A DNA stretch of 64,000 bases from Mediterraneibacter gnavus ATCC 29149 (GTDB taxonomy: Bacteria; Bacillota; Clostridia; Lachnospirales; Lachnospiraceae), in contig NZ_CP043051.1 in assembly GCF_008121495.1 (NCBI RefSeq), positions 3,057,001 to 3,121,000 on the forward strand, in the 5' to 3' direction. The notes beneath the pieces are model-generated. The model made no database searches. It saw nothing but the letters and a program-made list of their open reading frames with translations, and was not told the origin of the DNA. A program made the position numbers and the translations under genes. Every line of letters begins with the position of its first letter. The stretch's first letter is position 1. Of this stretch, positions 5,952 to 11,314 are shown piece by piece.

Positions 5952-6043
5952 GAAAATCTTAGAAAATGAAAGTGGTTCAGCGGAAAATCAAAAAATCCGG
6001 GAAAGACAGGAAACGAATAGGAAGAGGAGGTTCTGCATACATT

Positions 6044-6361
6044 TTGGATAAGAGGCGTATAACGGCAGTGCAGAATATGAAAAGAGAAGCAGAAAAAGAA
6101 AAGTTAAGAGAACGGTTTGCGGCGGCTGCAAATATGCCAAAGGATGTGGTGTTAGGGGCATCTGTCGTGACTGTGATCGGAAACGGGGAAATCAGTATTG
6201 AAAATTACCGCGGAATTTTAGAATATACAGGAGAGCTGATCCGGGTACAGACGAAAAAAGGGCAGATCCAGGTACACGGAAAGGGACTGCAGATTGAGTA
6301 CTATCTGAATGATGAGATGAAAATAACAGGGAAGATCCATACCCTTGAATATGAAATGTGA
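6044..6361 (+). CDS. yqfC: YabP/YqfC family sporulation protein
   Basis: A small basic protein. The core from MPKDVVLGASVVTVIGNGEI to the end (IQVHGKGLQIEYYLNDEMKITGKI) is the YabP/YqfC fold, needed at engulfment in Bacillus and always next to yqfD as here. The reading frame is open from 5966 with an ATG that has no SD. An ATG at 6077 would give the usual length of about 94 residues but also has no SD. The only strong SD (AGGAGG, 6025-6030) points to ATT 6041 or TTG 6044, so I chose TTG. The start is therefore uncertain, the identity is not. It is separated from yqfD by 11 bases. Confidence 0.8.
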   Translation: MDKRRITAVQNMKREAEKEKLRERFAAAANMPKDVVLGASVVTVIGNGEISIENYRGILEYTGELIRVQTKKGQIQVHGKGLQIEYYLNDEMKITGKIHTLEYEM

Positions 6362-6372
6362 GGTAAACAGCA

Positions 6373-7614
6373 ATGCAGAGAATCCTGCGTTTTTTGAGAG
6401 GATATGTAAAAATCAGAATAAAGGGATACTCCCCGGAGCGTTTTTTAAATCTGTGCAGTCATCATCAGATCGATATCTGGGGACTTCAGCCCTGTAAAAA
6501 TTCTTATGAGATGTATGTAAAGCTGAAGGATTTTCGGAAAATCCGTCCGATCGTGAGAAAAACGCGCACGAAGGTCGTTTTAGTGGAACGCTTCGGCATG
6601 CCATTTTTTCTAACAAGATGTCAGAGCAGAACATGGTTTCTCGCAGGAGCTGTGCTCTGTATACTCCTGTTGATGTTCTACACTTCGTTTATCTGGGATA
6701 TCCATTTTGAAGGAAATGAAAAATGGACGGATGAAGTACTGCTTCAATTTCTGGAGCAGGAGAAGATCACACCTGCCATGCCAAAAGGGAAGGTAGACTG
6801 CGCGGATATCGTGCGGAAGATTCGGCAGAAATATGATGATATTGTGTGGGTCTCAGCCTCCATCGATGGAAGCAGGCTGAAAATACAGATCAAGGAGAAT
6901 GAAGATACGTTTCAGGAGGTGCAAAAGGAAGAAAAACCCTGTGATCTGATCGCAGAACAGGACGGGGTGATCACAAAGATGGTGACACGTTCCGGAGTTC
7001 CCATGGTGCATGTCGGGGATCAGGTGAAAAAGGGGGATATCCTTGTGTCAGGCAGAATCGAGGTGTGCAATGATGCAAAAGAGGTGGTAGAATATCAGTA
7101 TGAGCAGGCAGATGCGGATATTAGGGCAGACACGCAGACAGAATATGAGGATGAAATCAGCACATACTATGAAGAAAAGAGGTATCAGAACCAAAAACGG
7201 ATGCAGGTTTTTGTGGAATTTAAAAACTGGGAATGTCATCTTGGAAGTGTGAAAAATTCTTTTCCGAAAAGTGAACAATATGTGATGAAACGTCAGGTGA
7301 CCCTGGGAGAAAATTTTCATCTTCCACTATTTTATGGGGTAAAAGTTGCAAAATCATACCAGATAAAAGAAAAAAGATATACAAATGAAGAAATTCAAAA
7401 GAAATTGAGCGAAAACTTCAAACAATTTTCAAAGGAATTGAAGGAAAAAGGTATTCAAATACAGGGAAATAGTGTTAAAATACACATAGGCAAAAAATCT
7501 GCGGTTGCAAAAGGGAGCTTATACCTGAATGAAGACATTGCAAAAAAAGCAGATACAGAAATATTAGAGATTGAAAGGAATAAGAAGGATGAGTCTTTCA
7601 GAACTGATGATTGA
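6373..7614 (+). CDS. yqfD: Sporulation protein YqfD
   Basis: 413 residues with a short N-terminal cytoplasmic domain (including YSPERFLNLCSHHQIDIW), one transmembrane segment at about residues 91-112 and a long extracytoplasmic part. That part contains the IWDIHFEGNEKWTDEVLLQF and QDGVITKMVTRSGVPMVHVGDQVKKGDILVSG segments typical of YqfD; the second resembles a biotinyl/HlyD-type beta barrel. It is a mother-cell membrane protein of endosporulation in Bacillus. Directly downstream of yqfC and overlapping phoH by 26 bases, so the three genes are one transcription unit. Confidence 0.9.
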   Translation: MQRILRFLRGYVKIRIKGYSPERFLNLCSHHQIDIWGLQPCKNSYEMYVKLKDFRKIRPIVRKTRTKVVLVERFGMPFFLTRCQSRTWFLAGAVLCILLLMFYTSFIWDIHFEGNEKWTDEVLLQFLEQEKITPAMPKGKVDCADIVRKIRQKYDDIVWVSASIDGSRLKIQIKENEDTFQEVQKEEKPCDLIAEQDGVITKMVTRSGVPMVHVGDQVKKGDILVSGRIEVCNDAKEVVEYQYEQADADIRADTQTEYEDEISTYYEEKRYQNQKRMQVFVEFKNWECHLGSVKNSFPKSEQYVMKRQVTLGENFHLPLFYGVKVAKSYQIKEKRYTNEEIQKKLSENFKQFSKELKEKGIQIQGNSVKIHIGKKSAVAKGSLYLNEDIAKKADTEILEIERNKKDESFRTDD

Positions 7615-8584
7615 TATACCGGCGGAGCACGAGAGAAATGTGTTCGGGCAGTTTGATGCGTATGCAAAAAAGCTGGAGCGGACGTTTCATGTGACACTGA
7701 TCGCCAGAGAAGGCAAAGTGAAGATATTAGGTGAAGATAAAAATGCAGAGAAGGCAAGGCGGGTATTGGATCAGCTTGCTGCTCTGTCAAAAAGAGGAAA
7801 TGAGATTACGGAACAGAATGTAGATTATGCCATGTCACTGGTCTATGAGGATCAGGAGGAGGCGATGGTGGAGATGGATCGGGAATTGATCTGTCACACA
7901 TTGCAGGGAAAACCGATCAAACCGAAGACGCTGGGACAGAAGCGTTATGTAGATGCCATTCGGGAAGGAATGATCACGTTTGGGCTGGGACCTGCGGGAA
8001 CCGGAAAGACCTATCTTGCCATGGCTATGGCAATCACAGCGTTTCAGAGAAATGAAGTGAGCCGTATTATCCTTACCAGGCCGGCGATAGAGGCAGGAGA
8101 AAAACTGGGATTTCTTCCGGGAGATCTTCAGAGCAAGATCGATCCCTATCTGCGTCCTCTTTATGATGCATTGTATCAGATCATGGGAGCGGAAAGTTTT
8201 GCAAAAAATTCAGAAAAAGGTCTGATCGAGGTTGCACCTCTTGCTTATATGAGAGGAAGAACACTGGACAATGCGTTTATCATTCTGGATGAGGCACAGA
8301 ATACGACGCCGGCACAGATGAAAATGTTTCTGACAAGGATCGGATTTGGTTCCAAAGTCGTGATCACCGGAGATGCCACCCAAAAGGACCTTCCGGCAGG
8401 AACGGTTTCCGGTCTGGATGTAGCAGTCAAGGTGGTAAAAAATCTGGAGGGGATCAGCATCTGCACACTGACGAGCAAGGATGTGGTGCGGCACCCGCTT
8501 GTACAGAAGATCGTAAAGGCATATGAAGAGTATGAAAAGAAGAGCACCCGTACAAAGGGCGGTACAAAAAGGAGAAAATCATGA
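7589..8584 (+). CDS. phoH: PhoH family ATPase
   Basis: 331 residues. An N-terminal KH-like region is followed by a P-loop NTPase domain: GLGPAGTGKTYLA is the Walker A motif, FIILDEAQNTTPAQMKMFLTRIG is the Walker B and RNA-helicase-like motif, and VITGDATQKDLP is motif III. PhoH proteins are cytosolic ATPases linked to RNA metabolism and are typically encoded next to ybeY, as here. The ATG at 7589 is preferred because AAAGGA lies 9 bases upstream; the frame extends further back to a TTG at 7571. The stop overlaps the ybeY start (ATGA). Confidence 0.93.
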   Translation: MSLSELMIDIPAEHERNVFGQFDAYAKKLERTFHVTLIAREGKVKILGEDKNAEKARRVLDQLAALSKRGNEITEQNVDYAMSLVYEDQEEAMVEMDRELICHTLQGKPIKPKTLGQKRYVDAIREGMITFGLGPAGTGKTYLAMAMAITAFQRNEVSRIILTRPAIEAGEKLGFLPGDLQSKIDPYLRPLYDALYQIMGAESFAKNSEKGLIEVAPLAYMRGRTLDNAFIILDEAQNTTPAQMKMFLTRIGFGSKVVITGDATQKDLPAGTVSGLDVAVKVVKNLEGISICTLTSKDVVRHPLVQKIVKAYEEYEKKSTRTKGGTKRRKS

Positions 8585-9078
8585 GTTTGTATTTAGAAGA
8601 AGAAGGAGAAATCACACTTCCGTTTGAAACGAAAGAAGTGGCAGATCTGGTGGTGGAAGCCGCATTGGAATATGAGGGATGTCCTTATGAAGCAGAGATC
8701 AATCTGCTGCTGACCACAGACGATGAGATCCACCGGATGAACGAGGAGTTTCGTCAGATCGACCGGGCAACGGATGTTTTGTCGTTTCCGATGCTGGAAT
8801 ATGAGACTCCGGGAGATTTCTCGTTTGTGGAAGAGGAGGCCGAAGCATTTAATCCGGAATCTGGAGAACTGATGCTTGGTGACATTGTTATTTCCAAGGA
8901 GAAGGTACTTGCACAGGCAGAGGCCTATGGACACTCACCGAAACGGGAATTTGCATTTCTGATCGCACACAGTATGCTTCATTTGTTCGGATATGATCAT
9001 ATGGAAGAAGAGGAGCGTCTGGTCATGGAAGAAAGACAGCGTGAGATCATGGAAAAAGTCCAGATTTTAAGGGCGTGA
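8581..9078 (+). CDS. ybeY: Endoribonuclease YbeY (16S rRNA 3'-end maturation)
   Basis: 165 residues. The C-terminal HSMLHLFGYDH motif is the three-histidine zinc site of the YbeY family, and the FRQIDRATDVLSFPM segment is the conserved upstream signature. YbeY is a metallo-RNase acting in 16S rRNA maturation and ribosome quality control. Translation is coupled to phoH by an ATGA overlap, and the next gene starts 12 bases later. Confidence 0.95.
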   Translation: MSLYLEEEGEITLPFETKEVADLVVEAALEYEGCPYEAEINLLLTTDDEIHRMNEEFRQIDRATDVLSFPMLEYETPGDFSFVEEEAEAFNPESGELMLGDIVISKEKVLAQAEAYGHSPKREFAFLIAHSMLHLFGYDHMEEEERLVMEERQREIMEKVQILRA

Positions 9079-9090
9079 CGGAGGAGACGG

Positions 9091-10815
9091 ATGGCAGATA
9101 TACAGAAGAACAAAAGAAGAAAAAAACAGTCGAAAGAGAATGAATTTTTGATACAGGGAGCAATCCTTGCAGCGGCGGCAGTGATTGTAAAGATCATCGG
9201 GGCATTGTACCGGATTCCGCTGACCAATATTATCGGAGATGAGGGAAACGGATTTCTCGGATATGCATATGAGATTTATGCGATGGCACTGATGCTGTCC
9301 TCCTTCAGTCTTCCGATCGCGGTATCCAAGCTGGTCTCCACAAAGATGGCGATGCACCAGCCAAGAAACGCCTTTCGAATTTTTAAATGTGCAATGATGT
9401 TTGCGGTTTCCGTGGGGGCAGTTGTGGCACTGGCAATCTTTCTGGGGGCAGATATGATCTCCAGACATCTGATGGAATCGCCGCTTAGTGTCTATACACT
9501 CAAGGTGCTGGCTCCGGCGCTGTTTATCGTGGCAGTGCTCGGTGTAATGCGCGGATATTTTCAGGGAATGGGAACTATGGTTCCGACTGCGATCTCCCAG
9601 GTTTTGGAGCAGATCATCAATGCAACAGTCAATATCGTAGGAGCCAGCATCATGATCAAAGTGGGGATGGCAGCTGCGAAAAAGCAGGACAATCCTTTGC
9701 TTGAACCGGCCTATGGGGCAGCGGGAGGAACGGCGGGAACGGCTACGGGAGCACTGGTCGCACTGTTGTTTTTGATGTTTGTGTTTGTACTGTTTCAAAA
9801 AGTGATGATGCGGCAGATGAGAAGAGACCGCACGAAACATCAGGATGGATATGGGCAGATTTTGAAGGTTCTTCTTTTGACGATCGCCCCGATCCTGTTC
9901 AGTACGGCAATCTATAATATCAATCAGATTATTGACCTGACCTTGTTTGCAAAGATCATGGCAGCACAGGGAGTTACCTTGAAAGAATATATCATTCCAC
10001 AGGGAATTTACACAGGAAAATACAATACGTTGATCAACATCCCGCTTGCGATGGCGAACGGACTTGCAGCATCTGTTATTCCGGCACTGACAGCGGCAGT
10101 TGCCTCCAGAAACCGGACGCAGATGCAGAATAAGATCAATCAGACGATCCGTCTTACCATGCTGATCGCGATTCCTTGTTTTGTGGGATTTGTGGTACTG
10201 GCATCGCCGATCATGCAGTTCCTTTACGGAGATTCCAGAACGGAGCCTGCACTGATGCTGGCATCCGGGGCGATCACAGTTGTGTTGTACAGTTCCTCAA
10301 CAGTTACAAACTCGATTCTGCAGGGACTGGACCGGCTGACTGCACCGGCAAAGAATGCGCTGATTTCACTGGGGATCCATCTTGTGGCAGTCCTTTTGAT
10401 GCTGGTTGTTTTCAAATGGGGGATTTATTCTCTCGTATTCAGTAATGTGATCTTCAGTTTTTGTATGTGTGTACTGAATATGAAGGATGTATATAAGGCA
10501 AGTGGATTCAGACAGGATTTCAAGACCTGTTATATCAAGCCGTTTCTGGCAGCTTTGATCATGGGAGTGGCGGCATTTGTGTCCAATAAGCTTCTTAGCG
10601 CCCTGATGCCGGGAAGATTTCTGGCAAATGGACTTTCTATCATCATTGCCATGCTGGTGTACGCAGTGGCGGTGATCCGGGTAGGAACGCTTTCCGAGTC
10701 AGATATGCTGGCACTTCCAATGGGCGGACGGATCTTAAGAGTCTGCAAACGTTTTAAGATTTTTCCACAGGAGAGAGACCTGGACGATGATGATGACATT
10801 GAATATCTGGATTGA
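9091..10815 (+). CDS. Polysaccharide/lipid II flippase-like membrane protein (SpoVB/YtgP, MATE-like fold)
   Basis: 574 residues with a basic N-terminus, then about 14 transmembrane segments. The opening FLIQGAILAAAAVIVKIIGALYRIPL and the repeated inverted-topology segments match the SpoVB/YtgP/MurJ group of the MOP superfamily, which flip undecaprenyl-linked precursors, including lipid II, across the membrane. The C-terminus is strikingly acidic (five Asp in a row before IEYLD). It follows ybeY by 12 bases with a strong SD (GGAGGAG). Its place after yqfCD suggests a role in sporulation or cell-wall synthesis. Exact substrate is not readable. Confidence 0.85.
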   Translation: MADIQKNKRRKKQSKENEFLIQGAILAAAAVIVKIIGALYRIPLTNIIGDEGNGFLGYAYEIYAMALMLSSFSLPIAVSKLVSTKMAMHQPRNAFRIFKCAMMFAVSVGAVVALAIFLGADMISRHLMESPLSVYTLKVLAPALFIVAVLGVMRGYFQGMGTMVPTAISQVLEQIINATVNIVGASIMIKVGMAAAKKQDNPLLEPAYGAAGGTAGTATGALVALLFLMFVFVLFQKVMMRQMRRDRTKHQDGYGQILKVLLLTIAPILFSTAIYNINQIIDLTLFAKIMAAQGVTLKEYIIPQGIYTGKYNTLINIPLAMANGLAASVIPALTAAVASRNRTQMQNKINQTIRLTMLIAIPCFVGFVVLASPIMQFLYGDSRTEPALMLASGAITVVLYSSSTVTNSILQGLDRLTAPAKNALISLGIHLVAVLLMLVVFKWGIYSLVFSNVIFSFCMCVLNMKDVYKASGFRQDFKTCYIKPFLAALIMGVAAFVSNKLLSALMPGRFLANGLSIIIAMLVYAVAVIRVGTLSESDMLALPMGGRILRVCKRFKIFPQERDLDDDDDIEYLD

Positions 10816-10840
10816 CAAAATCAAGTGAACTGAATAAAAC
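10812..10840 (+). promoter_or_regulatory. Promoter of the BofC-like gene
   Basis: TTGACA (10812-10817, overlapping the flippase stop codon), 17 bases, then TAAAAC (10835-10840). Transcription would begin near 10847, just before the left arm of the hairpin at 10851. Confidence 0.65.
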
Positions 10841-10850
10841 CGGTACAAAG

Positions 10851-10915
10851 AGCCAATACTGTATGAAAAAAGGAGTCGGACTTTTATGAAGAAGAAATAC
10901 TGTATTGGCTTTTTT
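10851..10915 (+). promoter_or_regulatory. Terminator-like hairpin whose loop holds the SD and start codon
   Basis: AGCCAATACTGTAT (10851-10864) pairs with ATACTGTATTGGCT (10897-10910) at 13 of 14 positions and is followed by six T (10910-10915). The 32-base loop contains AAAAGGAG (10868-10875) and the ATG at 10886. The right arm is coding (codons 4-9). The structure has the form of an intrinsic terminator or attenuator that a translating ribosome would disrupt. Confidence 0.7.
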
Positions 10916-11242
10916 GTGGTCTTGTTTGTGTTTGTCAGTCTGCTCGGAATCGGATATCAGGTGAGTTACCAGTATGTGATGGACAGGCAGATGGCGCGGC
11001 AGCAGGATAAACAGCAAAGAAGTGTTGCCGTGAAAGGGGAAGCAGAAAAAAATGAAGGATATTATCTGGCAGAGCTGCATGGCTATGTGGTCGTCTATCT
11101 GTTTGATCAATCTACAATTTATGAATTTACAGACATTCCGTTTGAAGAACTGCCGAAAGAAGTGCAGACAAATGTAAAGCAAAAAAAATATGTTGAAACA
11201 GAGGAGGAACTTTACGCATTTCTGGAAAATTATTCCAGCTAA
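10886..11242 (+). CDS. Small membrane protein with BofC C-terminal-like domain
   Basis: 118 residues: an N-terminal membrane segment (about residues 5-26), a short basic linker and a domain from about residue 50 reading YYLAELHGYVVVYLFDQSTI, then YEFTDIPFEELP. This resembles the C-terminal domain of BofC, the forespore protein that restrains the sigma-K checkpoint protease in Bacillus; similar stand-alone membrane-anchored versions occur in clostridia. The assignment rests on pattern only. The gene has its own promoter and an unusual terminator-like hairpin around its start codon. It follows a probable sporulation/cell-wall operon. Confidence 0.6.
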   Translation: MKKKYCIGFFVVLFVFVSLLGIGYQVSYQYVMDRQMARQQDKQQRSVAVKGEAEKNEGYYLAELHGYVVVYLFDQSTIYEFTDIPFEELPKEVQTNVKQKKYVETEEELYAFLENYSS

Positions 11243-11314
11243 AAAACAGCGGGGTAGACGAAAATCGAGAAATAGTGTAAGATGGAGAAAGAATTTTTGG
11301 GAAAGGATAAGATT

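Follow-up and report, generated by a model that had tools for sequence, protein, structure and literature searches.

A promoter-spanning hairpin as a candidate read-through insulator of a bofC-like forespore gene in Mediterraneibacter gnavus

What is the role of a terminator-like hairpin that encloses the start of a gene? This is the question raised by the 5' end of a bofC-like gene in the window, i.e., the whole 64,000-nucleotide stretch of Mediterraneibacter gnavus ATCC 29149 DNA that was analysed. Our answer, to which we give a probability of about 0.82, is that the hairpin would serve as an insulator, keeping the bofC-like gene, as a forespore gene, from read-through of the operon that lies upstream.

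A sequence-only reading of this DNA had described pairing arms at 10851-10864 and 10897-10910, a loop carrying the Shine-Dalgarno sequence and start codon, and a right arm within codons 4-9 of the bofC-like gene (Table 1). These descriptions hold, with 13 of 14 positions pairing, with AAGGAG (10870-10875) and the ATG (10886) both found within a 32-nt loop, and with the right arm falling on just those codons. Six T had been noted as well after the stem. The T-run indeed is present (10910-10915), but T10910 is also where the right arm ends, leaving five T beyond the stem. As RNA, 10845-10915 folds at -19.9 kcal/mol (z -4.9), which none of 200 shuffles equals, and among 3000 random recodings that preserve the peptide, 30 pair as well as the native sequence. 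Coming from one genome alone, these statistics are suggestive and no proof. The pattern AATACTGTAT...AATACTGTAT has a single occurrence in the 3.55-Mb genome.

Table 1. Features at and upstream of the start of the bofC-like gene (window positions)
Feature	Position	Strand	Remarks
yqfC, yqfD, phoH, ybeY	5966..9078	+	tightly spaced, upstream of spoVB-like gene
spoVB/murJ-like flippase gene	9091..10815	+	taken as read-through source
-35 element TGAATA, forespore (sigma F/G) type	10831..10836	+	GHATA spacing conserved in relatives
Hairpin left (5') arm	10851..10864	+	AGCCAATACTGTAT; predicted to occur solely in read-through RNA; covariation
-10 element AATACTG	10855..10861	+	within hairpin left arm; 18 nt after TGAATA
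Inferred start region, gene's own promoter	10866..10870	+	about 7 nt downstream of -10
Shine-Dalgarno AAGGAG	10870..10875	+	inside hairpin loop
bofC-like gene	10886..11242	+	118 aa; one N-terminal membrane anchor, MKKKYCIGFF...
Hairpin right (3') arm	10897..10910	+	ATACTGTATTGGCT; N-terminal coding sequence, YCIG and flanking bases
U-run TTTTTT	10910..10915	+	first T paired; T excess after stem vs codon expectation in relatives

As with intrinsic (Rho-independent) terminators, a stem here is followed by a U-run. The short-loop, GC-rich stem of such terminators is not what is found, however, as the loop is 32 nt long and holds the start codon, the 3' arm and U-run are coding, and the 5' arm is, by prediction, a promoter. 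A terminator pattern scanner makes no call at the site because it permits loops of 3-8 nt only. In an Rfam search the hairpin matches no known family, with weak chance matches seen elsewhere only.

The protein of the bofC-like gene in the window has no above-cut-off match to the BofC_C profile (PF08955); weak matches are seen in 11 of 24 relatives (best E 0.0018). Within the genus the gene is carried by 56 of 58 genomes, and in a family sample by about half (221/397). Upstream and co-oriented, both in the window and in 151 of 198 relatives, is the spoVB-like gene, which ends 35 nt before the hairpin left arm and thus is placed so as to be able to supply read-through RNA. The operon to which it belongs contains homologues of mother-cell (sigma E) genes and, going by B. 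subtilis, would be expressed in the mother cell.

From where, then, does the gene's own transcript start? The sequence-only reading had placed a promoter at 10812-10840, with a transcript start just before the left arm. Such a sigma-A promoter would depend on the TTGACA at 10813, which shares bases with the stop codon of the gene before it and has no conserved counterpart at the corresponding distance in relatives; we have rejected this promoter. What is conserved is TGAATA, 18 nt and AATACTG, which puts the start downstream of the left arm instead. Sigma F and sigma G recognize GHATR, a spacer of 15-18 nt, and GG..A.A.T / CAT..TA, with CATACTA or CATACTG being the sigma G consensus form of the -10. 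The TGAATA-N18-AATACTG of the window fits a forespore promoter of this description. Among 144 anchored loci, GHATA lies 17 nt (73 loci) or 18 nt (63 loci) from RATAC in 136, a count leaning slightly towards the motif as, given several candidate -10 sites, anchoring preferred one near GHATR; at any other spacing GHATA is seen in at most 3 of the 144. Nearly all relatives share a common 5' layout consisting of T-G-[ACT]-ATAAA, 17-18 nt, RATACTR in the left arm, AAAAAGGAG, and ATG, with the right arm, in the 5' regions that were read, made up of codons about 4-10. Forespore promoter forms are likened to those of B. subtilis, and to each other, in PMC3789822.

Judged by its conserved form, the element is a forespore (sigma F/G) promoter, its -10 being the hairpin left arm. 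The start at about 10866-10870, as well as the use of sigma F or G, we infer from the consensus; genes for both sigma factors are present in the genome. As this predicted start is downstream of the left arm, the gene's own mRNA would lack that arm and therefore could not fold the hairpin. It is the conservation of the -35 and -10 that points to an own promoter starting RNA downstream of the 5' arm. In relatives with shifted or lost hairpins the -10 often is CATACTA or CATACTG (rough counts). A genome-wide scan for the same promoter pattern returned 13 hits versus 11 in a reversed control, i.e., no excess, and the pattern alone therefore does not find forespore genes. Upstream of a second gene of the small acid-soluble spore protein (SASP) family in the genus (L151, L185, L188, L190) there is, by eye, a conserved GHATR-N17/18-GGCAATACTY, which probably is a sigma F/G promoter, while the upstream region of the first SASP gene has no clear promoter of this form.

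Folding of both RNA forms across relatives distinguishes them clearly. Read-through RNAs have a mean fold z of -4.36, with 138 of 144 below -2; for own-promoter RNAs the mean is 0.11, with 3 of 144 below -2. A stem spanning the Shine-Dalgarno sequence and start thus is found in the long RNA only. Pairing was assessed as well against synonymous recoding, using, at 208 loci, the best pairing of the upstream region with codons 3-15. The 204 co-oriented Lachnospiraceae loci score 31.3 versus 22.5 for recoded sequences, with 191 exceeding their own synonymous null and 150 doing so at p<=0.05.

Across Lachnospiraceae loci the stem is conserved and compensatory changes are found, which is the outcome that the sequence-only reading had named as support for selection on the RNA. 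The noncoding left arm covaries with the third base of the Ile codon (60/12/5/53, p 1.5e-18), of the Gly codon (76/11/0/17) and of the Tyr codon (56/23/0/29). All four Watson-Crick pairs occur between the left arm and the first position of the codon that follows Ile (CG 102, TA 17, AT 8, GC 5), so that the residue at that position, i.e., Gly, Ser, Cys or Arg, changes along with the left arm. Examples are GAAGGCCGATACTATAAC / GTTATAGTATCGGCCTT (L206), AAAATGCGAATAC / GTATTCGCATTTT (L212) and TGAATACTGTA / TACAGTATTCA (L195). In a sample drawn mostly as a single species from each genus, pairing is seen in 81% of cells; exchanging partners among species lowers this to 71%, and sliding them to 35-47%. 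Left-arm bases change at least 9, 6 and 4 times on the tree, and among tree-corrected independent pairs none goes in the wrong direction, with just 2, 1 and 1 on well-supported branches. The pairing, on this comparative evidence, is under selection as RNA, with part of the covariation being shared descent and with relatedness inflating the counts.

Another reading of the arms is as a DNA-level inverted repeat, serving as paired operators or as an additional promoter that is read from the opposite strand. In the window ATACTGTAT itself is palindromic, which makes the arms direct repeats as well. Relatives do not retain this palindrome, however, and paired operators were rejected for that reason; no matching -35 is seen, by eye, behind the right arm; and G-U pairs (174 observed, 261 with swapped partners) are tolerated over A-C mismatches (43 observed, 130 with swapped partners), from which + strand RNA is the likely carrier of the pairing. 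We consider a DNA-level role exceedingly improbable.

Natural rearrangements serve as an experiment on the hairpin. At four loci (L113, L134, L253, L254) the bofC-like gene is oriented away from the gene upstream of it, these four species perhaps representing two or three rearrangements. In L113 and L134 the gene is inverted, with DUF896 and formyl-THF cyclo-ligase genes divergent upstream and the spoVB-like gene convergent downstream, and in L253 and L254 it is divergent to proB. All four are without the stem, pairing being 16.6 versus a null of 18.1 (0/4) and fold z being -0.45 (L113), -0.24 (L134), 0.94 (L253) and 1.12 (L254). Both L113 and L134 nevertheless retain the peptide KYGIGF, with synonymous and -10 changes breaking the pairs. 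Protein constraint alone as an explanation of the pairing is rejected by this retention of peptide without pairing, together with the synonymous null. In all, inversion or relocation of the bofC-like gene has happened at least twice in the family, once to beside proB.

Elsewhere the hairpin has been relocated. In L147, AATGCCAA pairs with TTGGCATT adjoining the ATG; in L318 and L261 the Shine-Dalgarno sequence pairs with a pyrimidine arm that precedes the -10; and in L277 a compact terminator lies across the -10, downstream of a cytidine deaminase gene. In each of these four the 5' arm is at or upstream of the -10. What is constant among relatives, as predicted from these arrangements, is a structure formable by read-through RNA only, with L259 a possible exception in that both arms may lie downstream of its -10. 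Pairing of a pyrimidine arm with the Shine-Dalgarno sequence, around or beside a CATACTA -10, is seen in L318, L261, L259 and L216.

These comparisons bear as well on the mechanism that the sequence-only reading had proposed, which was a ribosome-gated attenuator: RNA starting from the promoter at 10812-10840 would contain both arms, and polymerase would proceed only upon prompt loading of a ribosome, with gene output thereby sensing ribosome availability. The stem, the Shine-Dalgarno sequence and ATG in the loop, and the U-run are all real, and a sigma-A-like TTGACA does occur in the window. Both arms would have to be part of the gene's own transcript, however, whereas the conserved promoter spans the left arm, with GHATA at 17 or 18 nt from RATAC setting the start inside the loop, and TTGACA is the unconserved element. 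Nor would loss of the stem be expected of such a sensor in the four species lacking a co-oriented neighbour, and in several relatives the right arm is on the Shine-Dalgarno sequence or just behind it. The ribosome-sensing mechanism probably is wrong, and we view it as very unlikely.

Under the insulator reading, polymerase entering from the yqfC-yqfD-phoH-ybeY-spoVB-like operon would make RNA with both arms, and that RNA would fold and then end at about 10915 and/or conceal the translation start. No BofC-like protein would be made from read-through RNA, be it during growth or in the mother cell. Sigma F or G polymerase, on the other hand, would initiate within the loop region, and its RNA, being without the 5' arm, would stay unfolded and be translated in the forespore.

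Termination may have a part in this. At least six T among the eight bases after the stem are found at 108 loci, versus 71 expected from codons, and the U-run excess is seen also without an A-run opposite (13 versus 6.4 expected). Some relatives, though, are without a U-run, and efficient terminators tend to have shorter loops than the 32 nt seen here; termination therefore may not be the general mode. The hairpin may act by termination, by hiding the translation start, or both. A narrower possibility is that it is the terminator of the upstream operon only, placed over the next start for lack of space and with no selected silencing of the bofC-like gene. The U-run excess and the compact form behind the cytidine deaminase gene in L277 are in line with this, as is a pattern scan of the window, which found no other terminator-like site between the spoVB-like gene and the hairpin. 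In L147 and L261, however, the stem covers the Shine-Dalgarno region without a long U-run behind it, some distant relatives retain the stem with a weak U-run, and long loops make poor terminators. A terminator and nothing more is, in our estimation, unlikely.

An insulator of this kind has precedent in its logic. In B. subtilis a hairpin is predicted to block translation of spoIIIG (sigG) from RNA reading through from the spoIIG operon (PMC5942855 Fig. 1D, its refs 9 and 52), and it cannot form in RNA from sigG's own sigma F/G promoter (PMC5942855). There too a forespore gene lies behind an operon used elsewhere, with the structure found in read-through RNA only. The bofC-like case differs in gene and family, in its -10 being the 5' arm, in its mostly coding 3' arm followed by a U-run, and in having covarying conservation over some 200 loci along with natural loss. 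The sigG gene of the M. gnavus genome (L033) itself has a hairpin covering the Shine-Dalgarno sequence in a longer RNA, GGTGAATTCTTTT / GGAGGATTCAC (z -3.0), which is absent from the shorter RNA, as for B. subtilis sigG.

With phage T4 gene e (lysozyme) the translation start is folded away in the long early RNA; late RNA, whose promoters are situated in the 5'-strand region, escapes folding; and the structured RNA gives 100-fold less lysozyme synthesis (PMC3014915). As here, a promoter is found in the 5' strand of a start-covering hairpin. That system, however, is of a phage, concerns timing and not cell compartment, and for it no terminator-like U-run has been described. In the open-access literature we found no description of this arrangement at bofC or at other forespore genes. 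What would be new is the gene, the use of the -10 as an arm, a coding arm that carries the peptide with it, the presence of a U-run, and the comparative evidence; the logic was already known.

One short stretch of DNA thus may be promoter, terminator-like insulator, ribosome site and coding sequence together. This suggests a simple guard of cell-type specificity against read-through in spore formers. It warns as well that N-terminal protein conservation may stem from RNA pairing and not from protein function. Going further, the residue that follows Ile (Gly, Ser, Cys or Arg) and nearby codons might, across the family, follow the noncoding promoter arm, i.e., the anchor peptide would be 'written' by the gene's own promoter because the RNA must pair to silence a compartment-specific gene in the other cell. 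Were this general, insulators of this sort would be expected regularly wherever mother-cell genes border on forespore genes. We offer this tentatively, as a possibility about which we are rather doubtful.

A last observation concerns the region 3' of the bofC-like gene. In relatives the DUF896 gene has a shared sigma-A-like promoter, TGGACGAA...GTGTATAATA, at the place of 11255-11300, where the window has TAGACG and TAAGAT.
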